A stretch of 64,000 bases of DNA, taken from the NCBI RefSeq assembly GCF_009674775.1, contig NZ_WKKE01000002.1, positions 1 through 64,000 of the forward strand. Reading direction: 5' to 3'. The stretch's first letter is position 1; every line of letters starts with the position of its first letter. Positions 43,846 through 54,510 of this stretch are shown here, piece after piece. The DNA is from Flavobacterium sp. LC2016-23. Its GTDB lineage: Bacteria; Bacteroidota; Bacteroidia; Flavobacteriales; Flavobacteriaceae. The translations under genes and the position numbers were made by a program. The notes below the pieces were generated by a model that saw only the letters and a program-made list of their open reading frames with translations, was not told the origin of the DNA and did not search any database.

Positions 43846-44607
43846 TTATCGGATCCCTCCAACAAATTCCGAAATTTTGCCAGAACCACTTTCACTCAAA
43901 TGTTTAATAAAAGCACTCCCGATAATAGCGCCTTTGGCAAATTTGGTGGCCTGGTTAAAAGTCTCCTTATTCGAAATTCCGAAACCAATGATTTGTGGAT
44001 TTTTCAGGTTCATGCCTGCAATTCTTTCGAAATAATCTTCCTGAACATTTCCAAAACCGGATTGAGACCCCGTAACACTTGCCGAACTTACCATATAAAT
44101 AAAGCCGTTTGAAACACTGTCGATAAAACGAATGCGCTCGTCTGACGTTTGCGGGGTAATCAAAAATACGTTTATTAAACCGTATTTATCGAAAATAGCT
44201 TTGTATTCGTCTGCATAAACATCAACCGGAAGATCCGGAATAATTAAGCCGTCGATACCGATTTCAGCACATTTTTTGCAGAATGCCTCAATGCCGTATT
44301 GTAACATCGGATTGAAATAGCCCATAATGATCAACGGGATTTTTACGCTTTCGCGAATGTCTTTCAACTGATCAAAAAGGATTTGTGTTGTCATTCCGTT
44401 GTGCAGCGCCTGTGTTGAACTCGCCTGAATTGTTGGTCCGTCTGCCAGAGGATCGCTGAAAGGTAAACCAATTTCAATTAAATCCACTCCGTTTTTTTCT
44501 AAGTCCTGAATGATTTGAACCGTATCGTTTAAATTAGGATATCCCGCCGAAAAATAAATAGAAAGGATCTTTTTATCTTCCTGTAATTTTTGAGTTATTC
44601 TGTTCAT
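43846..44607 (-). CDS. trpA: Tryptophan synthase alpha chain
   Basis: The 253-residue TIM-barrel enzyme splits indole-3-glycerol phosphate to indole. The catalytic Glu is in DLIEIGLPFSDPLADGP and the catalytic Asp in GLIIPDLPVDVY. It is the last gene of the trp operon and is separated from trpB by two unrelated genes, which is unusual because alpha and beta usually adjoin. Confidence 0.97.
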   Translation of the reverse strand: MNRITQKLQEDKKILSIYFSAGYPNLNDTVQIIQDLEKNGVDLIEIGLPFSDPLADGPTIQASSTQALHNGMTTQILFDQLKDIRESVKIPLIIMGYFNPMLQYGIEAFCKKCAEIGIDGLIIPDLPVDVYADEYKAIFDKYGLINVFLITPQTSDERIRFIDSVSNGFIYMVSSASVTGSQSGFGNVQEDYFERIAGMNLKNPQIIGFGISNKETFNQATKFAKGAIIGSAFIKHLSESGSGKISEFVGGIR

Positions 44608-44746: not shown

Positions 44747-45484
44747 CTAATTGATAATGACCTGACTCGTCCAGTTATCATTTTGATTTTCTACAATTAA
44801 AAGTCCGGAATCCGAATCGTTCATTTGTGCAACCAGTTCTCCTTTGTTGTTCCAGAACGCACTTTTTCCGCCTGAAGGATAACCCCATGATTCGCCGCTG
44901 AAATTAGACATCAGAACATTCATTTTATGTTTTTGGGCATAACTTTGTAAATCACGGTACGCATTTGGAATCCCGTTTGGCGAAAAGAAAATACTGGCGA
45001 TATAAATCGAAGTTTCATTTTGACCAGCGTTTTCAGCATGCAGCGGATTGTCTATATCAGCGCAAATGGCAAATGAAATTTTCTGGTCTTCAATCGTAAT
45101 CATCGGATTATAATCAAAGGAAGGCTGGAAAAACTCATCTTCCCCTTCATGCAAAAATTGTTTGGTATATATCGAAACCGAATTATCGGGAAAAATAATA
45201 AATTCACCGATATACAATTCTGATTCATTCTGAATGGGAGCACCCGCAACAATGGTGATATTATAATCGACTGCCAGTTCTTTTAAATGGTCTATCCTGT
45301 AATCGTCTTTTGTAAAGGCCAATTCCGCTGCATTTTCTCTTTCGTAACCTGTAATCGACAATTCCGGAAACACAATTAAATTGGCGCCTTTTTCTGCAGC
45401 CAGTCCGATCAAACGATAATGATCCAATAAATTAGAGGCTATATCTCCACGTTTTGGTTTTGTTTGTGCTGCTGCTAAAATCAT
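44747..45484 (-). CDS. Carbon-nitrogen hydrolase (nitrilase superfamily), guest in trp operon
   Basis: The protein has 245 residues with catalytic E41 (FPELSITGYE), K108 (YTKQFLHE) and C141 (FAICADI). It is clearly paralogous to the enzyme at 26868-27629, sharing the opening AAQTKPKRGDI pattern and all triad positions. It sits between trpB and trpA with no evident role in tryptophan synthesis. Substrate unknown. Confidence 0.9.
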   Translation of the reverse strand: MILAAAQTKPKRGDIASNLLDHYRLIGLAAEKGANLIVFPELSITGYERENAAELAFTKDDYRIDHLKELAVDYNITIVAGAPIQNESELYIGEFIIFPDNSVSIYTKQFLHEGEDEFFQPSFDYNPMITIEDQKISFAICADIDNPLHAENAGQNETSIYIASIFFSPNGIPNAYRDLQSYAQKHKMNVLMSNFSGESWGYPSGGKSAFWNNKGELVAQMNDSDSGLLIVENQNDNWTSQVIIN

Positions 45485-45531: not shown

Positions 45532-45849
45532 TTAACTTTCAATGTAAATCCATGCCGTTACGCCAGATTTCAGTTTGATCTGAACTCTTTTGTAGGCATT
45601 CGATTCGAATAAATCTGCTTTTGCCAGATCTTTACTGGATATCGTATACACAATTCCTTTGATAAAATCGGAAGTATTTTCGCTGGGCATGGCTACAAAA
45701 TAATCTGTCATTCCAAATTCTTCCTCTATTTTTAAATCCTTTAGTTTATAACCTGTCAGCTGGTCCGGTGTTCCGGGCAAAATCTTATTAAAAACCTGCA
45801 TCTGAATTTCTTTTGACTGTAATGTTCCGTAAGAAAATAGCTGTTCCAT
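45532..45849 (-). CDS. Gamma-glutamylcyclotransferase (AIG2) family protein, guest in trp operon
   Basis: The 105-residue protein begins with the substrate-loop motif FSYGTLQ and continues KGIVYTISSKDLAKADLFES with the catalytic-type Glu. The family cyclises gamma-glutamyl amines. Specificity cannot be told. It is transcribed with trpB upstream and the nitrilase gene downstream. Confidence 0.85.
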   Translation of the reverse strand: MEQLFSYGTLQSKEIQMQVFNKILPGTPDQLTGYKLKDLKIEEEFGMTDYFVAMPSENTSDFIKGIVYTISSKDLAKADLFESNAYKRVQIKLKSGVTAWIYIES

Positions 45850-45904: not shown

Positions 45905-47086
45905 TTATAATTTAAAATATTCGATATAATTGTCTAAATCTTTGTCACCACGTCCCGAAAGACTGATGACCACGACATCTGTTGGTTTGAATTTTTTCTG
46001 GTCCAGAACGGCAAAGGCATGCGCGCTCTCGATCGCCGGAATAATTCCTTCTAGTTTTGTCAGTTGTAAACCGGCATTCATCGCTTCATCATCGGTTACG
46101 GAGAAGAATTCCCCACGGCCCGTTTGTGCCAAATGTGCATGCATTGGTCCGACTCCCGGATAATCAAGACCTGCGGAAATAGAGTAGGGCTCTGTAATTT
46201 GTCCGTCCGGGGTCTGCATCAAAAGTGTTTTGCAACCGTGAATGACACCGACTTTCCCTAACTTACTTGTGGCAGCACTATGACCACTGTTGACGCCTTT
46301 TCCGGCAGCTTCGACAGCAATGATGCCCACTTCAGTCTCGTGTAAAAAATGATAAAAAGTTCCCGCTGCGTTACTTCCGCCACCGATACAGGCGACGACG
46401 TAATCCGGGTTTTCGCGTCCTTCTTTTTCTTTCAGCTGCCATTTGATTTCTTCTGAGATAATACTCTGGAAACGGGTGACCATGTCCGGATAAGGATGTG
46501 GTCCAATTGCAGATCCGATAATATAATGCGTATCAACCGGATTGTTAATCCAGTCACGGATGGCTTCGTTTGTAGCATCTTTTAAGGTTCTTGAACCTGA
46601 AAGTGCCGGACGAACTTCTGCGCCTAACATTTTCATTCTAGCCACATTCGGAGCCTGGCGTGCAATGTCAATTTCACCCATGTACACAATGCACTTCAGT
46701 CCCATTAAGGCACAAACCGTTGCTGTTGCCACACCATGCTGACCTGCACCGGTCTCTGCAATAATTCTTTTTTTGCCCAGACGTTTGGCAACGAGTATTT
46801 GTCCGATAGTGTTGTTGACTTTATGTGCTCCCGTGTGGTTTAGGTCTTCTCTTTTCAGGTAGACTTTGGTATTGTATTTTTCAGACAGACGCTTGGCGAA
46901 ATATAGCGGGCTTGGACGGCCAACGTAATCTTTTAGTAATTGGTTAAATTCTGCTTTGAAATCGGGCTCAGCGATGATTTTTAAATATTGCTGGCGTAAC
47001 TCTTCTACATTCGGATACAGCATTTCGGGAATGTAAGCTCCTCCAAATTCGCCGTAGTATCCTTTTTCGTTAACATTATAGTTCAT
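45905..47086 (-). CDS. trpB: Tryptophan synthase beta chain
   Basis: The 393-residue PLP enzyme condenses indole and serine to tryptophan. The PLP lysine is K89 in HTGAHKVNN. The phosphate-binding loop is GGGSNAAG, and the N-terminal GYYGEFGGAYIPEML is typical of TrpB1. It starts 3 bases after trpF. Confidence 0.98.
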   Translation of the reverse strand: MNYNVNEKGYYGEFGGAYIPEMLYPNVEELRQQYLKIIAEPDFKAEFNQLLKDYVGRPSPLYFAKRLSEKYNTKVYLKREDLNHTGAHKVNNTIGQILVAKRLGKKRIIAETGAGQHGVATATVCALMGLKCIVYMGEIDIARQAPNVARMKMLGAEVRPALSGSRTLKDATNEAIRDWINNPVDTHYIIGSAIGPHPYPDMVTRFQSIISEEIKWQLKEKEGRENPDYVVACIGGGSNAAGTFYHFLHETEVGIIAVEAAGKGVNSGHSAATSKLGKVGVIHGCKTLLMQTPDGQITEPYSISAGLDYPGVGPMHAHLAQTGRGEFFSVTDDEAMNAGLQLTKLEGIIPAIESAHAFAVLDQKKFKPTDVVVISLSGRGDKDLDNYIEYFKL

Positions 47087-47089
47087 AAT

Positions 47090-47758
47090 TTATTTGTTTT
47101 TTATTTCCTGGAGGCGGGCACGTACAGCTGCACTGGCGTGTGTCTCTAGATATGCCTCTCTGCACAATTTTACATTTTTTAATCCGGGTTCCATCTCAAA
47201 TTTACTGTTTATATCAATGGCATAAATGGGTAATTTAAGATTTTTTATCAAAGGTATTTCATCCATTCCGATACCGCCGCTTAAGAAAAACGGTTTCCCG
47301 GATTTGTATTTTTCTAATATCGTCCAGTCGAAAGTTGTTCCGTTTCCGCCGGGTAATTTTCCTTTGGTATCGAATAAAAAATAATCACACAGTTTTTCAA
47401 AAGGAGTTAAAAGATCAAAATTAAAATCTTCTCCGACAGAAAAAACTTTTATGATTTCGACTTTCGCATCAATTTTGGCATCGATTTTCTTTTTTAGTTC
47501 CTGACAGAATTCAACGGATTCATTTCCATGCAGTTGGACAGCCTGTAAATGGTATTTATTGACTTTCGACATGATATAATCGACCCTTGCATCTACAAAA
47601 ACACCTGTTTTTTTGATTGTTTTGATCAGTTCCGGAATCGTTGCGTCAAAATAGCGAGCGGATTTTTCGTAGAAAATAAATCCCATATAGTCGGGCAGGA
47701 GCGCTCCTACTTCGAGAATATTATCGGGATATTTCATTCCGCATATTTTTAGTTTCAT
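47090..47758 (-). CDS. trpF: Phosphoribosylanthranilate isomerase
   Basis: The 222-residue TIM barrel has catalytic Cys in KLKICGMK and Asp in TGVFVDA, plus LQAVQLHGNES and PFFLSGGIG. A short extra C-terminal tail (AAVRARLQEIKNK) follows the usual end. It is 3 bases upstream of trpB. Confidence 0.96.
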   Translation of the reverse strand: MKLKICGMKYPDNILEVGALLPDYMGFIFYEKSARYFDATIPELIKTIKKTGVFVDARVDYIMSKVNKYHLQAVQLHGNESVEFCQELKKKIDAKIDAKVEIIKVFSVGEDFNFDLLTPFEKLCDYFLFDTKGKLPGGNGTTFDWTILEKYKSGKPFFLSGGIGMDEIPLIKNLKLPIYAIDINSKFEMEPGLKNVKLCREAYLETHASAAVRARLQEIKNK

Positions 47759-47923: not shown

Positions 47924-48703
47924 CTAAAGCTCTCTAATAAATTCCCTTGCGGCTTTTCCCGCATTATCGGTTTTCATGAAATTTTCTCCAATCAGGAAAC
48001 CGCTGTAACCGTAAGGTCTTAGTTCTGAAATGGCTTCAACTGATGAAATGCCGCTTTCGGAAACTTTTACAAATTCATCCGGAATCTGAGAGGCCAGTTG
48101 TTTGCTGAAATCCAGACTTACTTCGAAGGTTTTCAGGTTTCGGTTGTTCACGCCGATCATATCCAGCGTTGGCATAATCGATTTTTCTAACTCTTCCTTA
48201 TTGTGGACTTCCAGTAAAACTTCTAAACCTAGTTTTTTAGCGAATTCAGACAATGATTTGATTTCTTCGCGGGTTAAAACCGCTGCGATCAGTAAAATTA
48301 AATCGGCTCCAAAAGCTTTGGCTTCCAGAATCTGGTATTCGTCTACAATAAATTCTTTTCGCAAAAGCGGAATAGCTACAGAAGCTCTTGCCAAAAGTAA
48401 ATCGTCCAGTGAACCGCCAAAATACTTTCCGTCCGTTAAAACAGAAATTCCGCAGGCACCTGCACTTTCATATCCTTTTACCACTTCTTCAACCGTAAAA
48501 TTATGATTTATTACTGATTTTGAAGGCGAGCGGCGTTTGTGTTCTGCAATAATTCCGGTTTTGCTTTGTCTTAATTTTTGACTTAAAGAGATCGTCTTTC
48601 TTTCAAAAAATACCGAATTTTCCAATTGTGCAACCGGAATGATTGATTTCTTAAGGACAACTTCCCGTTGTTTATCGAAGATTATTTTATCTAAAATATT
48701 CAT
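47924..48703 (-). CDS. trpC: Indole-3-glycerol phosphate synthase
   Basis: The 259-residue TIM barrel has the catalytic KRRSPSK block (AEHKRRSPSKSVIN), LRKEFIVDEYQI, and VGVNNRNLKTF-type IGVNNRNLKTF. It closes the indole ring from CdRP. It is not fused to trpF, unlike E. coli. Repeat-filled gaps flank it on both sides. Confidence 0.97.
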   Translation of the reverse strand: MNILDKIIFDKQREVVLKKSIIPVAQLENSVFFERKTISLSQKLRQSKTGIIAEHKRRSPSKSVINHNFTVEEVVKGYESAGACGISVLTDGKYFGGSLDDLLLARASVAIPLLRKEFIVDEYQILEAKAFGADLILLIAAVLTREEIKSLSEFAKKLGLEVLLEVHNKEELEKSIMPTLDMIGVNNRNLKTFEVSLDFSKQLASQIPDEFVKVSESGISSVEAISELRPYGYSGFLIGENFMKTDNAGKAAREFIREL

Positions 48704-48775: not shown

Positions 48776-49768
48776 TTACTTACTTAATTCTTTCAGTTTG
48801 TTTAATACTTTCAGTCCTTTTCCGGAGAAGAGACTTTCTTTCGCCTGTTTAAAACCTTCCTGTGGAGAGCATTTTGTTACCGTTGAAATCGCCATTGCTG
48901 CATTCGCACAAACCACATTGTTTTGGGCTTCGCTTCCTTTTCCGGAAATGATACTGGTAAACATTTCTGCTGACTCTTCGATGGTTCTTCCGCCTTCGAT
49001 CTCACTTTGGGCTAAAAGGCGAACATTAAAATCTTCCGGTTTTAACATCCCTTCCATAGTGCTGGTGATGATTTTTGTCGGACCGGTTAACGAAATTTCG
49101 TCATAACCGTCAAGCGAATGCAGGATCGTAAAATTCACATCGGTATTCTGGTATAAATAAGCATACATTCGGGCTAGTTCTAAATTGAAAACACCCACCA
49201 GCTGGTTTTTAGGAAACGACGGATTTACCATTGGCCCTAACATATTGAAGAATGTTTTTACGGCCAGTTCTTTTCTGATCGGGCCTACATTTTTCATTGC
49301 CGGGTGAAATAACGGTGCATGTAAAACGCAAATTCCGGCCTGATCGATACATCTTTCCAGAAACTCCGGATCATTGCTAAATTTGATGCCCATTTTTTCC
49401 ATGACATTGCTGGATCCGGAAATAGAGGAAACCCCGTAATTTCCGTGTTTGGCCACTTTTATTCCGGCTCCTGCAGCGATAAAGGAAGCTAGAGTCGAAA
49501 TGTTGAACGTATCTTTTCCGTCACCACCCGTTCCGCATAAATCGATAGTATTATAGGCTGATAGGTCTATGCGAATGCATAATTCTAATAAGGCTTCACG
49601 AAAACCCGAAAGTTCGTCGATCGTTATACTGCGCATCATAAACACAGTTAAAAAAGCCGAAATCTGACTTGGATTGTAGGCTCCGCTTGAGATATTAATC
49701 AATACGGTTTTTGCTTCTTCTTTGGTAAGCATTTCGTGATTGATTAATTTATTTAATATATTTTTCAT
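48776..49768 (-). CDS. trpD: Anthranilate phosphoribosyltransferase
   Basis: The 330-residue enzyme has the PRPP motif CGTGGDGKDTFNIST, KHGNYGVSSISGSSNVMEK, and HNVGPIRKELAVKTFFNMLG-type blocks. It attaches phosphoribose to anthranilate. It is separate from trpG, as is usual outside enterobacteria. Confidence 0.97.
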   Translation of the reverse strand: MKNILNKLINHEMLTKEEAKTVLINISSGAYNPSQISAFLTVFMMRSITIDELSGFREALLELCIRIDLSAYNTIDLCGTGGDGKDTFNISTLASFIAAGAGIKVAKHGNYGVSSISGSSNVMEKMGIKFSNDPEFLERCIDQAGICVLHAPLFHPAMKNVGPIRKELAVKTFFNMLGPMVNPSFPKNQLVGVFNLELARMYAYLYQNTDVNFTILHSLDGYDEISLTGPTKIITSTMEGMLKPEDFNVRLLAQSEIEGGRTIEESAEMFTSIISGKGSEAQNNVVCANAAMAISTVTKCSPQEGFKQAKESLFSGKGLKVLNKLKELSK

Positions 49769-49856: not shown

Positions 49857-50264
49857 TCAATGTTCATTTCCCTGATAAATCCACATGGGTTCCGTTTTTC
49901 CTGCACGTTCGAATCCGTTCTTTTTGTAAAAGTCAACCGCTCGTCCGTCTGCGGTTAACATTTGCATGTGAAAGTGACTGTACTTCTCCTGCATTTTATC
50001 CATAATCAGTTTACCGATTCCTTTTCCCTGATATTCTGGAAGCACTAATAAATGAGGATAATAAACCGTTAAATATCCATCTGAAATGGCATTGCCAAGG
50101 CCGACCAGTTTTTTGTCTTGCCATGCGGTTATTAATGTTTCCGAATTCAAAAGAGCGTTATACAATTCGTTAGGTTTATTGGCCGAACTCCATTCGTTTT
50201 CTTTGTAAAGAACCAATATGTCTTCCAGGTTAATTTCTTTGGTATCTAAGATTTTTATGTTCAT
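49857..50264 (-). CDS. GNAT family N-acetyltransferase, guest in trp operon
   Basis: The 135-residue protein has the acetyl-CoA loop LPEYQGKGIGKLIMDKM, the C-terminal RAVDFYKKNGFERAG, and ends YQGNEH. Target unknown. It lies between trpG and trpD in the same orientation, between two repeat-filled gaps. Confidence 0.9.
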   Translation of the reverse strand: MNIKILDTKEINLEDILVLYKENEWSSANKPNELYNALLNSETLITAWQDKKLVGLGNAISDGYLTVYYPHLLVLPEYQGKGIGKLIMDKMQEKYSHFHMQMLTADGRAVDFYKKNGFERAGKTEPMWIYQGNEH

Positions 50265-50354: not shown

Positions 50355-50921
50355 CTAACTCTTTATCCAATTCTCTAAAATCCTTTTTCCTTTTGGTGTC
50401 AGCACACTTTCCGGATGAAACTGAACACCTCTTACATCAAAAGTTTTGTGTCTCAGTGACATAATCTGTCCGTTTTCATCTATTGAAGTCGCTTCTAAAA
50501 CGTCCGGTAAATTACTGTCCACCACCCAGGAGTGGTAACGTCCTACTTCAAATTCATTTCCTAAACCTTCAAACAGGATTTCATCGGAAACTACTGTTTT
50601 TACGTTCGTGGCAACTCCGTGATATACTTTGTCAAGGTTTGAGAGTGTTCCTCCAAAAACTTCTCCGATTGCCTGTTGTCCCAGACAAACACCTAAAATA
50701 CTTTTGGTCGGGGCATATTTCTGAATTACAGCTTTTAGTAATCCTGCTTCATCAGGGATTCCGGGACCCGGCGATAGTAATATCTTATCGAAAGAAGCGA
50801 TTTCGTCTATGTCAAACTCATCGTTTCTGTAAACGGTAACCTCGCAATTTAAATCTTCTAAATAGTGCACGAGGTTGTAAGTGAAACTATCGTAATTGTC
50901 TATAACTAATATTTTTTTCAT
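50355..50921 (-). CDS. trpG: Anthranilate synthase component II (glutamine amidotransferase)
   Basis: The 188-residue class I amidotransferase has catalytic C79 (GVCLGQQAIGE), H169 and E171 (FHPESVLT). GRYHSW is the substrate-contact motif. It supplies ammonia to TrpE. In the operon it is separated from trpE by a small lipoprotein gene. It may also serve folate synthesis, as in Bacillus, which sequence cannot settle. Confidence 0.96.
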   Translation of the reverse strand: MKKILVIDNYDSFTYNLVHYLEDLNCEVTVYRNDEFDIDEIASFDKILLSPGPGIPDEAGLLKAVIQKYAPTKSILGVCLGQQAIGEVFGGTLSNLDKVYHGVATNVKTVVSDEILFEGLGNEFEVGRYHSWVVDSNLPDVLEATSIDENGQIMSLRHKTFDVRGVQFHPESVLTPKGKRILENWIKS

Positions 50922-51007: not shown

Positions 51008-51451
51008 TTATTTTTCTCTAACGTACTTCTCGACAATAATGCGGTCAACGCCTAATTTTTCCACTTTTTCTATTCCTTTTTGAATCAGCGTATCATTTTT
51101 AACTTTTACTACAAATTCAAACTTGTTGTTTTCCCATTGACGGTTATTAAAATATTCCAGATTTTCGGTATAAATACTGTCTTTCAACGTATATTTTCCG
51201 CCTCCTCCAAAAAATACAGCGGCTGTGGAATCTTTGCCGTTATTTAAATCATGATTGAAAAAAGCAAAGTGCGAATCATTTATAATTTTAATCATTTTTG
51301 TTTTGGAATTGAAAGTCGAAAAAGTCGAATCTTTCTCTGTGGTTTCTGCCGATACCAGACGCCAGGTTCCTTCAATAGGATTTTGTTTTTTCTCCGAAGT
51401 ACAAGCTGAAATGCTTAGTATTAAAATTAAAATTGATATTACTTTTTTCAT
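51008..51451 (-). CDS. Small lipoprotein, guest in trp operon
   Basis: The 147-residue protein has a lipoprotein signal (ILSISAC, C17). The mature part begins with a lipocalin-like EGTWRLVSAETTEKDS and an anti-parallel beta pattern. Function unknown. It lies between trpE and trpG in the same orientation, so it is expected to be expressed with tryptophan genes. Confidence 0.8.
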   Translation of the reverse strand: MKKVISILILILSISACTSEKKQNPIEGTWRLVSAETTEKDSTFSTFNSKTKMIKIINDSHFAFFNHDLNNGKDSTAAVFFGGGGKYTLKDSIYTENLEYFNNRQWENNKFEFVVKVKNDTLIQKGIEKVEKLGVDRIIVEKYVREK

Positions 51452-51530: not shown

Positions 51531-52931
51531 TTAAATCTTCTCTGCCATTTCCAATGCTGTATTGAGCGCTCTTAACTTATTGTAAACTTCCTGCATCTCG
51601 CTTTCCTCATCTGAACTTGCCACGATTCCGGCTCCTGCCTGGCAGTGCAATTGATGGTTTTTACTAAGGAAAGTCCGAATCATAATGGCGTGATTAAAAT
51701 TGCCTTCAAAATCCATAAAGCCGATCGCGCCACCGTAGAAATTACGATTGGTTTTTTCATAGTCTTCAATCAATTGCATGGCTCTGTGCTTCGGTGCTCC
51801 ACTTAAAGTTCCTGCCGGAAAAGTATCAGCGACAACCTGCATTGTAGTTGCTTTTTCATGCAAATGCCCTGTTACTTTTGAAACTAAGTGAATGACATGA
51901 GAGAAAAACTGAACTTCTCTGTATTTCTCCACATTGACATCGTGACCGTTTCTGCTCAGATCATTTCTGGCCAGATCGACTAACATTACGTGTTCACTGT
52001 TTTCTTTTTTGTCTTCCGAAAGTTCTTTTGCCAGAAGAGCGTCGCGTTCGTCATTTCCGGTTCTTTTGAATGTTCCGGCAATCGGGTGAATTTCTGCTTT
52101 TCTGTTTTTTACGATAATCTGCGCTTCAGGCGAAGAACCAAATATTTTGAAATCGCCGTAATCAAAAAAGAATAAATAGGGAGAAGGGTTGATGCTTCTT
52201 AAAGCTCTGTAAACATTAAATTCATCACCTTTGAAACCTTGTGTAAAACGACGGGATAAAACCAATTGAAAAACATCGCCACGGAAACAGTGTTTTTTGG
52301 CCAATGCCACATTGTGTTTGAATTCGGCATCCGTCAGATTCGAAAATCCTTCACCTTCTTTAGTAAATTTATAAGAAGCTATATTTCTCGACTGCAATAA
52401 TTGTTCGATTTCAGAAATATTGTTTCTTCCGTCTACACTGTGGCAGAAGATATAAGCTTCATTTTTGAAGTGATTAATGGCGATAATGTTTTGATATACG
52501 GCATAAAAAACATCCGGAATTGAAGTCGCGTTGTCTTTTTTGGCAATAGTCACTTTTTCGAAATAACGAACAGCATCGTAGGAAATGTATCCGAATAAAC
52601 CGTTGTTGATGAATTTAAAATCATTTTTCTCCGATTGAAACTGGCTTGAAAATTCCTGAATGACCTCCGGAATATTGGTTGAAGCAGTAATGGAAATGGT
52701 TTCCGTTGTTCCGTCAGGAAAAGTTTTAGAGATGACCTCGTTTTCGATTTTAATTGTTGCAATAGGATTACAGCAGATGTAAGAGAAACTATTGTCATTT
52801 CCGTGATAATCGCTACTTTCCAATAATAGACTATTGGGAAACTTATCCCTGATTTTAAAATAGATACTTACCGGCGTTATAGTATCTGCCAGAATTTGTT
52901 TGTAGTGTGTGTGGAGTATAAAAGGTTTCAA
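51531..52931 (-). CDS. trpE: Anthranilate synthase component I
   Basis: The protein has 466 residues if read from the TTG at 52931, which gives the usual family beginning (M)KPFILHTHYKQILA. No ATG is available, and a longer reading to 53006 would begin inside the attenuator stem. The chorismate-binding domain has FQLVLSRRF, GSSPEAQI, PIAGTFKRTG and DTFPAGTLSGAPKHRAM. The N-terminal ESSDYHGNDNSFS carries the tryptophan-feedback type motif. First structural gene of the trp operon, behind an attenuator. Confidence 0.93.
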   Translation of the reverse strand: MKPFILHTHYKQILADTITPVSIYFKIRDKFPNSLLLESSDYHGNDNSFSYICCNPIATIKIENEVISKTFPDGTTETISITASTNIPEVIQEFSSQFQSEKNDFKFINNGLFGYISYDAVRYFEKVTIAKKDNATSIPDVFYAVYQNIIAINHFKNEAYIFCHSVDGRNNISEIEQLLQSRNIASYKFTKEGEGFSNLTDAEFKHNVALAKKHCFRGDVFQLVLSRRFTQGFKGDEFNVYRALRSINPSPYLFFFDYGDFKIFGSSPEAQIIVKNRKAEIHPIAGTFKRTGNDERDALLAKELSEDKKENSEHVMLVDLARNDLSRNGHDVNVEKYREVQFFSHVIHLVSKVTGHLHEKATTMQVVADTFPAGTLSGAPKHRAMQLIEDYEKTNRNFYGGAIGFMDFEGNFNHAIMIRTFLSKNHQLHCQAGAGIVASSDEESEMQEVYNKLRALNTALEMAEKI

Positions 52932-52980
52932 TGTATTTCGTTTTTTATAGTTTATTATTTTTTCATTTCGATTGTGACCA

Positions 52981-53013
52981 AAAAAAAAGGCTTGTCGTGA
53001 TGACAAGCCTTTT
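52981..53013 (-). terminator. trp attenuator terminator
   Basis: On the reverse strand AAAAGGCTTGTC, five bases, GACAAGCCTTTT, then more T residues. It lies between the Trp-rich leader peptide and trpE. Its 5' arm and loop (52994-53008) can instead pair with the end of the leader ORF (53043-53056). Confidence 0.92.
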
Positions 53014-53049
53014 ATATTTATAGTTTTAAAGTACCATAGGAAGCTTTGT

Positions 53050-53106
53050 TCACGACGTTTGACGTAAATTCTTCCACCACCAAGTATTGTTTAAAATTGT
53101 TTGCAT
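53050..53106 (-). CDS. trpL: trp leader peptide
   Basis: An 18-codon ORF on the reverse strand encodes MQTILNNTWWWKNLRQTS, with three consecutive Trp codons at positions 9-11. It lies 18 bases downstream of a -7 box and upstream of an intrinsic terminator and trpE. Codons 16-18, the stop and the following bases (reverse-strand GTCGTGAACAAAGC) are complementary to the terminator's 5' arm. This is the arrangement of a ribosome-mediated transcription attenuator: stalling at Trp codons would free that segment to form the antiterminator. Confidence 0.93.
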   Translation of the reverse strand: MQTILNNTWWWKNLRQTS

Positions 53107-53123
53107 TTCTTTTTTTGTTGTGA

Positions 53124-53131
53124 CAAAGATA
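53124..53131 (-). promoter_or_regulatory. -7 promoter element of the trp operon
   Basis: On the reverse strand this is TATCTTTG, 17 bases before the trpL start codon. It places the transcription start just upstream of the leader peptide. Confidence 0.8.
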
Positions 53132-53229: not shown

Positions 53230-54510
53230 TTAATTTCCAATTGCAATCGTGTTGTTTTGGTTCGCTCTAAAGTCCGGATTTCCTTTGATGTTTGGCATGG
53301 TAAACAATTCGTTGTTTTTCATTTTTGTATATCCGATTCCAAACTCAGGTTTGTTGTACCAATTTTGAATAGATGGATCTGTACCACTTGCTTCACTTGT
53401 AATTCCTCCGTTGCAATTGTTTACAATTACGTTTTTGAATGTAATTTTAGATAAGTTGGCATCACTGCTTCCAATGTTTTCTTCCAGTAAAACAAAAGGG
53501 GTAAAGCCCGAAGCAATGCTGTTGGTTAAGTTGAAAAATGTATTTTCCCTAATATGGATGGATTCTCTTACCAATCCCTGATTGTTTTCTTCCAGATTTA
53601 CAAGTGTAATATTACTTGCATTTATACGAGTCAGTTTCTTGCTCATATCTGTATTTTGAATTTTATCATAAGAATCTACCTCAAAACATCTTGATCCTGA
53701 AACATCTGAAGAGAAAGGATGGCGGATAGCAATACTGTTGCTGATGTTGATCTGGGCTCCTTGTGTAAAATCAAAATCATCATCGGTAGTACGGTACGAA
53801 ACCAGGTTGCTCATATTAATATCTCCTCCGTAACATTCGAAAGAGTCATCATTCGAAAAACTAATCTGAATATTGTTTAAAACCGTTTTTCTCCCTACTC
53901 CGGCTAAAGAAAGCCCGTTAAGTTCTTTTAAAGCACTTAATTTTCTTCCTGCATATTCAATACGTACATATTTCAGGATTCCGGAATTGTCTTCTGCATC
54001 AGGACCGCCATAATGATTGAGAATAGGATCTAAGTCGAAAGGCAACGTATGTAAGCCTCCCAGAGTATTTATTGGCGCTTTTCCTAAAATAATGATACCG
54101 CCCCAGTCGCCCGGTTTTCGTTCTGTTTTTTCTTTATTTGAAGTAAAAACAATCGGATCTGTTTCTAAGCCTTCAGCCACGATTTTTGCCCCATTGGTGA
54201 TCACCAGTGTTCCGCAGGTTTTATCGTCTCCTCGAATAACAGTTCCCGGTTCTATTGTAAGGGTAGCATTGTTGGTAACATATACAACACCTACTAATTG
54301 GTAGGTATTGCGTTTTAAGAGTTTGGTATCTTTATCTATTGTTCCGGCGATTATATTGGTAGCTTCGCCATATTCATTGGCAACAGGTTTAAAATTGGTC
54401 CAGTTATTCATCCAGTTGTTGGTTCCAATAATTCCTTTGGTTTGTTGTTGGGCGTGTAGAAAAAAACTGCTGATAAGAGCAATAAGTGCAAAATGTACTT
54501 TTGTTTTCAT
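53230..54510 (-). CDS. Secreted right-handed beta-helix-like protein
   Basis: The 426-residue protein has a signal peptide (MKTKVHFALIALISSFFLHA). The body contains beta-helix style repeats (VVYVTNNATLTIEPGTVIRG; TLVITNGAKIVAEG; GDWGGIIILGKAPIN; DDSFECYGGDINMSNLVSYR). There is no C-terminal T9SS domain, so it is probably periplasmic or exported another way. The family is common in Bacteroidota and its function is not known to me. A reverse-strand -7 box TAATTTTG lies at 54564-54571. Confidence 0.8.
   Translation of the reverse strand: MKTKVHFALIALISSFFLHAQQQTKGIIGTNNWMNNWTNFKPVANEYGEATNIIAGTIDKDTKLLKRNTYQLVGVVYVTNNATLTIEPGTVIRGDDKTCGTLVITNGAKIVAEGLETDPIVFTSNKEKTERKPGDWGGIIILGKAPINTLGGLHTLPFDLDPILNHYGGPDAEDNSGILKYVRIEYAGRKLSALKELNGLSLAGVGRKTVLNNIQISFSNDDSFECYGGDINMSNLVSYRTTDDDFDFTQGAQINISNSIAIRHPFSSDVSGSRCFEVDSYDKIQNTDMSKKLTRINASNITLVNLEENNQGLVRESIHIRENTFFNLTNSIASGFTPFVLLEENIGSSDANLSKITFKNVIVNNCNGGITSEASGTDPSIQNWYNKPEFGIGYTKMKNNELFTMPNIKGNPDFRANQNNTIAIGN

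Follow-up and report, generated by a model that had tools for sequence, protein, structure and literature searches.

The trp operon of Flavobacterium sp. LC2016-23 is very probably preceded by a ribosome-mediated transcription attenuator belonging to the Bacteroid-trp family (RF01692). The element lies on the (-) strand of the window (the whole stretch of 64,000 nucleotides that was analysed), between trpE and a gene that ends at 53230, and its parts are collected in Table 1. Downstream of it is a trpEGDCFBA cluster in which trpE and trpF score under the curated NCBIfam cut-offs yet far from chance. Small genes are interspersed among the trp genes (51008-51451, 49857-50264, 45532-45849 and 44747-45484), and from inspection by eye we take their products to be a lipoprotein, an acetyltransferase, a gamma-glutamylcyclotransferase-like protein and a C-N hydrolase-like protein. 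Elsewhere the window carries a 5S rRNA and then a Flavo-1 RNA (RF01705, 50.3 bits), at 211-320 and 501-616 on the + strand.

Table 1. Positions in the window of the putative attenuator parts and of the trp genes.
Feature	Positions	Strand	Basis
-7 box TATCTTTG	53124..53131	(-)	read directly; matches Bacteroidota -7 consensus TAnnTTTG
Leader ORF MQTILNNTWWWKNLRQTS, 18 codons, ATG at 53106, stop UGA 53052-53050	53050..53106 (including stop)	(-)	read directly
Three tandem Trp control codons of leader	53074..53082	(-)	read directly
5' strand of proposed protector (1:2) hairpin, partner 53049-53054	53063..53068	(-)	folding; evidence mixed
Region 2, GTCGTGAACAAAGC, overlapping leader end and stop, partner 52994-53010	53043..53056	(-)	folding, own-versus-exchanged pairing, alignment
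Region 3, partner of region 2, from terminator 5' arm through loop into 3' arm	52994..53010	(-)	folding, exchanged pairing
Intrinsic terminator with T run (hairpin 53013-52985, nine Ts ending 52980)	52980..53013	(-)	read directly, folding, covariation
RF01692 Bacteroid-trp, full-model match	53002..53126	(-)	Rfam search
trpE (putative TTG start)	51531..52931	(-)	TIGR00564, E 7.8e-132, 440.5 bits, curated cut-off 517.7 not reached
trpG	50355..50921	(-)	TIGR00566 above cut-off
trpD	48776..49768	(-)	TIGR01245 above cut-off
trpC	47924..48703	(-)	NF001377 above cut-off
trpF	47090..47758	(-)	NF002295, E 3.6e-37, 127.9 bits, cut-off 216 not reached
trpB	45905..47086	(-)	TIGR00263 above cut-off
trpA	43846..44607	(-)	TIGR00262 above cut-off

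The original prediction described an 18-codon leader with three consecutive Trp codons, a -7 box 17 bases upstream of it and a terminator, and direct reading finds each of them where it was placed, including the spacing of 17 bases from the box (53131-53124) to the leader ATG (53106). TAnnTTTG, which the box matches, is given as the Bacteroidota -7 consensus in PMC6414381. The leader frame is the only ATG-initiated ORF of 8-40 codons in the window to contain WWW (two start codons, one frame), and the leader scaffold occurs once in its own genome, at the trp leader. The segment from 53040 to 52980 folds with z = -6.90, and none of 200 shuffles folds equally well. The predicted complementarity between region 2 (53056-53043) and GCTTGTCATCACGAC (53008-52994, (-) strand) also reads as placed. 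Its description needs adjusting at the edges, since the target takes in the terminator 5' arm and loop as proposed but runs on for three bases into the 3' arm, and region 2, proposed to be made of the last two codons and the stop, covers the last codon and the stop but just one base of the codon before. The antiterminator was expected to contain one bulge; RNAfold instead gives a 3x4 internal loop between 7 bp (GUCGUGA:UCACGAC) and 6 bp.

A search of the whole window with RF01692 returns a full-model match at the trp leader with 75.9 bits against a gathering score of 49 (E = 9.5e-8), and, as expected of the family, the trp genes are preceded by a Trp-rich leader peptide, here a WWW leader before trpE. 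The element likewise has the short ORF, with control codons for the amino acid of its own pathway, that is typical of leader-peptide attenuators. In other bacteria, trp genes are also controlled by direct-sensing RNAs or by protein-binding attenuators, and a T-box, riboswitch or TRAP-like attenuator with an incidental ORF could in principle stand before trpE here. We consider this highly improbable, given the conserved tandem Trp codons described below and an Rfam scan of the window with three matches at gathering score, none of them a T-box or a riboswitch. On that scan, a direct-sensing RNA of known family was rejected.

Within the genus, 103 of 149 genomes have an RF01692 match, in a scan with stricter filters at which weak matches are lost; across the phylum 29 of 296 sampled genomes have one, 28 of the 29 being within the same order. 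The RF01692 hits make up a set of 131 loci, from which the second copy of one genome (G160) was left out, its DNA being contained in locus L138. A tandem-Trp leader (TGGTGG) with an in-frame ATG is present in 129 of the 131, with starts taken by a nearest-ATG rule that shortens some leaders; it has WWW in 126 cases and WW in three, and seven residues separate the last Trp from the stop in 111/129. At L080 a GTG start replaces the ATG, and the leader of L110 has no tandem Trp. The N-terminus of TrpE comes next on the same strand in 123/131 loci, and trpB takes its place in six (L018, L048, L091, L092, L104 and L111), with trpE directly after trpB at L048. L021 is one of the two RF01692 copies in G160, and opposite-strand genes separate it from the second copy and trpE. 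In the corresponding region (L138, G160:C1:2979000-2990500) the two copies are about 3.9 kb apart and only the second adjoins trpE. TrpE was matched in all of the first 20 RF01692-positive genomes of the list, although the G020 match has just 50% identity and lies apart from the element. Among the 46 RF01692-negative genomes of the genus, 20 were searched for TrpE; 14 were without it at E <= 1e-60 and six had it. All six have another tandem-Trp leader with a terminator before trpE, for example MTTNILNNNWWWFTINIVNS, as judged from peptides read by eye. The TrpE proteins of Rfam-negative genus genomes L112-L117 are only about 50% identical to that of the window.

These distributions bear on the simplest alternative, that the gene upstream simply has its own terminator, beside an ORF whose three Trp codons arose by chance, and that nothing is regulated. 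A terminator would be useful to that gene, which runs on the same strand and ends at 53230, but chance is hard to reconcile with a tandem-Trp ATG leader in 129/131 loci, almost always before trp genes, or with the other tandem-Trp leaders of the six TrpE-bearing genomes that lack RF01692. Because the leader is part of the model with which the 131 loci were found, its conservation among them is not independent evidence, whereas the six Rfam-negative genomes are independent. Leader conservation and the trp-gene context led us to reject this explanation, which we regard as extremely unlikely, in favour of an attenuator.

The locus without tandem Trp, L110 (G080:C26:24106-24236; 46.2 bits with RF01692, under the cut-off), carries MNTWIIKKGKKQYLRRTS on the same scaffold, upstream of aspartokinase and lysA. 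When 40 genomes were searched for aspartokinase, three of the seven matches at E <= 1e-80, all of the genus, had a Lys leader before the gene (L157, which is the L110 locus, L158 with MYQIKTNKVKKQYLRPTS and L159 ending IMKKGKKQYLRPMS); no such leader preceded the gene in the four matches from other families. When GTDB genomes were scanned with AARCARTAYYTACGTCNNANGTCGTGA, 20 loci turned up, the records bearing the names Flavobacterium, Myroides, Chryseobacterium or Flavobacteriaceae; not all of the loci are new, as several share leader and spacer with genus genomes already sampled. All 20 have K-x-KK-QYLR and the same kind of terminator; the pattern fixed KQYLR and the scaffold, and hence the seven residues from the last Lys to the stop, but left the preceding K-x-K, the terminator and the following gene free. 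The next ORF has an aspartokinase-like start in 16 of these loci, while first codons are visible in three and the start codon alone in one; lysA was confirmed in L140, the one locus checked. The Lys loci are those labelled L110, L157-L159 and L168-L191, and three of them (L174, L178 and L158) gave no Rfam match at E <= 0.1. A further pattern that does not require Lys, HNNNNNNNYTACGTCNNANGTCGTGA, matched six of 398 genus genomes, and all six matches are Lys leaders with terminator and gene. The backward control matched 3/398, so that a few chance matches are to be expected, and no other amino acid was found on the scaffold among the HNNNNNNNYTACGTCNNANGTCGTGA matches in the 398 genomes, control codons with G at the tested position being excluded by the pattern. 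The scaffold pattern occurs in 60/296 genomes of the order, at most once in each (control 0), and its match in the GC-rich genome G838 may be due to chance. The shared sequence suggests that the Trp and Lys leaders have a common origin. It is likely that the scaffold, CTTACGTC-NN-ANGTCGTGA followed by a CTTGTC-TCACGAC terminator, is a modular platform retargeted by exchange of its control codons, with a Trp form before trpE or trpB and a Lys form (K-x-KK-QYLR) before aspartokinase; the latter would be an undescribed lysine attenuator of the Flavobacteriales. Within titles and abstract openings among the matches listed, a Lys leader on this scaffold is not named.

In an alignment of 40 Trp and 16 Lys rows picked for variety, the terminator is paired in 100% of the 56 rows with 15 both-side changes, a number matched by none of 500 shuffles. 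In the aligned scaffold rows, pairing of the antiterminator core (GUCGUGA:UCACGAC) stands at 94.1%, but its sequence is nearly invariant, and no covariation signal was found for it within the scaffold, 46/500 shuffles reaching its score and 60/500 its pairing percentage. Its support comes instead from divergent leaders. Of 137 loci given to a pairing test, L048 and L076 were dropped as their terminators were not located. Across the 36 distinct targets, region 2 paired with its own terminator at a mean of -14.65 kcal/mol, compared with -12.72 (sd 0.36) after exchange, a mean reached by 0/5000 permutations. Among the ten most divergent targets, which lack the common arm, the values were -11.98 and -8.50 (3/5000 permutations as low), in a permutation that ignores kinship and with targets that include the close pairs L112/L113 and L070/L071 and the Lys locus L110. 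Stretches of 7 to 10 contiguous pairs between region 2 and terminator, in differing sequences, occur in L069, L112, L115 and L117, and the duplexes are weak in other divergent leaders (L070 -7.3, L019 -9.0 kcal/mol). Comparison with relatives, put forward in the original prediction as the check, thus finds the ORF kept and the terminator covarying but the antiterminator core nearly invariant, and the mutually exclusive antiterminator and terminator expected of an attenuator are, for the former, indicated by the divergent leaders and not by scaffold covariation.

Leaders that act on translation or stability exist elsewhere, and the putative trpE start is only 48 bases past the T run, so that this leader could act mainly on the translation or stability of the trpE mRNA and not on termination. 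Against this stands a terminator with covarying arms between leader and gene (folds extended to 52980), and we judge such a mode of action unlikely. Under transcription attenuation, the leading ribosome would stall on UGG UGG UGG when charged tRNA-Trp is scarce; region 2 would then be free to pair with the emerging terminator 5' arm and loop, and RNA polymerase would continue into trpE. When charged tRNA-Trp is plentiful, a ribosome at the UGA would cover region 2 and the terminator would form. Folding is consistent with this scheme if the ribosome footprint is assumed to reach from 18 bases upstream of the A-site codon start to 14 bases downstream of it. For a transcript ending at 52994, the antiterminator is the best fold with the ribosome at the first, second or third Trp codon (-15.8), is absent with the ribosome at the stop (-5.7), and also forms with no ribosome (-18.6). 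Full-length RNA folds into protector and terminator with no ribosome, and the terminator is present in every ribosome state; because the full-length folds always end in the terminator, the switch would have to be kinetic, decided while RNA polymerase moves. The proposed logic of alternative 2:3 and 3:4 pairing is therefore partly supported, by conservation over the 131 loci, own-versus-exchanged pairing and constrained folding, but not by antiterminator covariation in the scaffold.

A protector hairpin inside the leader may additionally hold region 2, and such a hairpin is possible. Its inner 1:2 helix pairs 53068-53063 with 53054-53049 in the full-length fold and is 94.9% paired over the 56 rows, the first pair being C-G in 32 and U-A in 20, with both kinds among the Trp rows and C-G only among the Lys rows. 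The covariation score of the 1:2 structure, 0.159, is close to those of slid controls (0.157 and 0.154), its number of both-side changes is reached by 408/500 shuffles, and the fold of 53104-53005 is not better than shuffles (z -0.43, 58/200). The preference of ribosome-free partial RNA for the antiterminator counts against a protecting role. The outer protector helix of the window's fold was rejected as a general feature, as it is 47.5% paired across relatives.

The element was taken in the original prediction to be undescribed for Flavobacterium, but it is already known there as RF01692. A 2010 list of motifs already included Bacteroid-trp as a cis-regulatory element of Bacteroidetes (PMC2864571), and in 2019 the RF01692 element was noted upstream of the Flavobacterium psychrophilum trp operon and likened to E. 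coli attenuation (PMC6414381). RNA-seq of F. psychrophilum pointed strongly to leader-peptide attenuation upstream of amino-acid operons (PMC9723704, 2021), in a report whose main text contains neither trp nor tryptophan. The statement of a 2010 survey (PMC2965389) that its authors knew of leader-peptide systems demonstrated in Proteobacteria and Actinobacteria alone has been overtaken by these later reports on Bacteroidota leaders (PMC6414381, PMC9723704). As the element belongs to a catalogued family, the value of our analysis for the window is mostly confirmatory, with comparative support added for a 2:3 antiterminator absent from the Rfam model. A single scaffold bearing either Trp or Lys codons would, if true, be a natural case of attenuator retargeting by control codons.

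The element of the window resembles the F. psychrophilum attenuators reported in PMC9723704 in its leader-peptide features before an amino-acid operon. With the E. coli-type trp attenuator (RF00513, Trp_leader) it shares a tandem Trp leader and predicted 2:3 and 3:4 helices that are mutually exclusive; it differs in that the Rfam scan found no RF00513 match in the window, and L112, a divergent leader of the genus, obtains 34.8 bits where the cut-off is 41. To RF01692 it is alike in its full-length match above the gathering score and in the same placement before trp genes. The RF01692 model covers the leader-side pairing and ends inside the terminator 5' arm, and its structure is without the terminator and without the 2:3 antiterminator.
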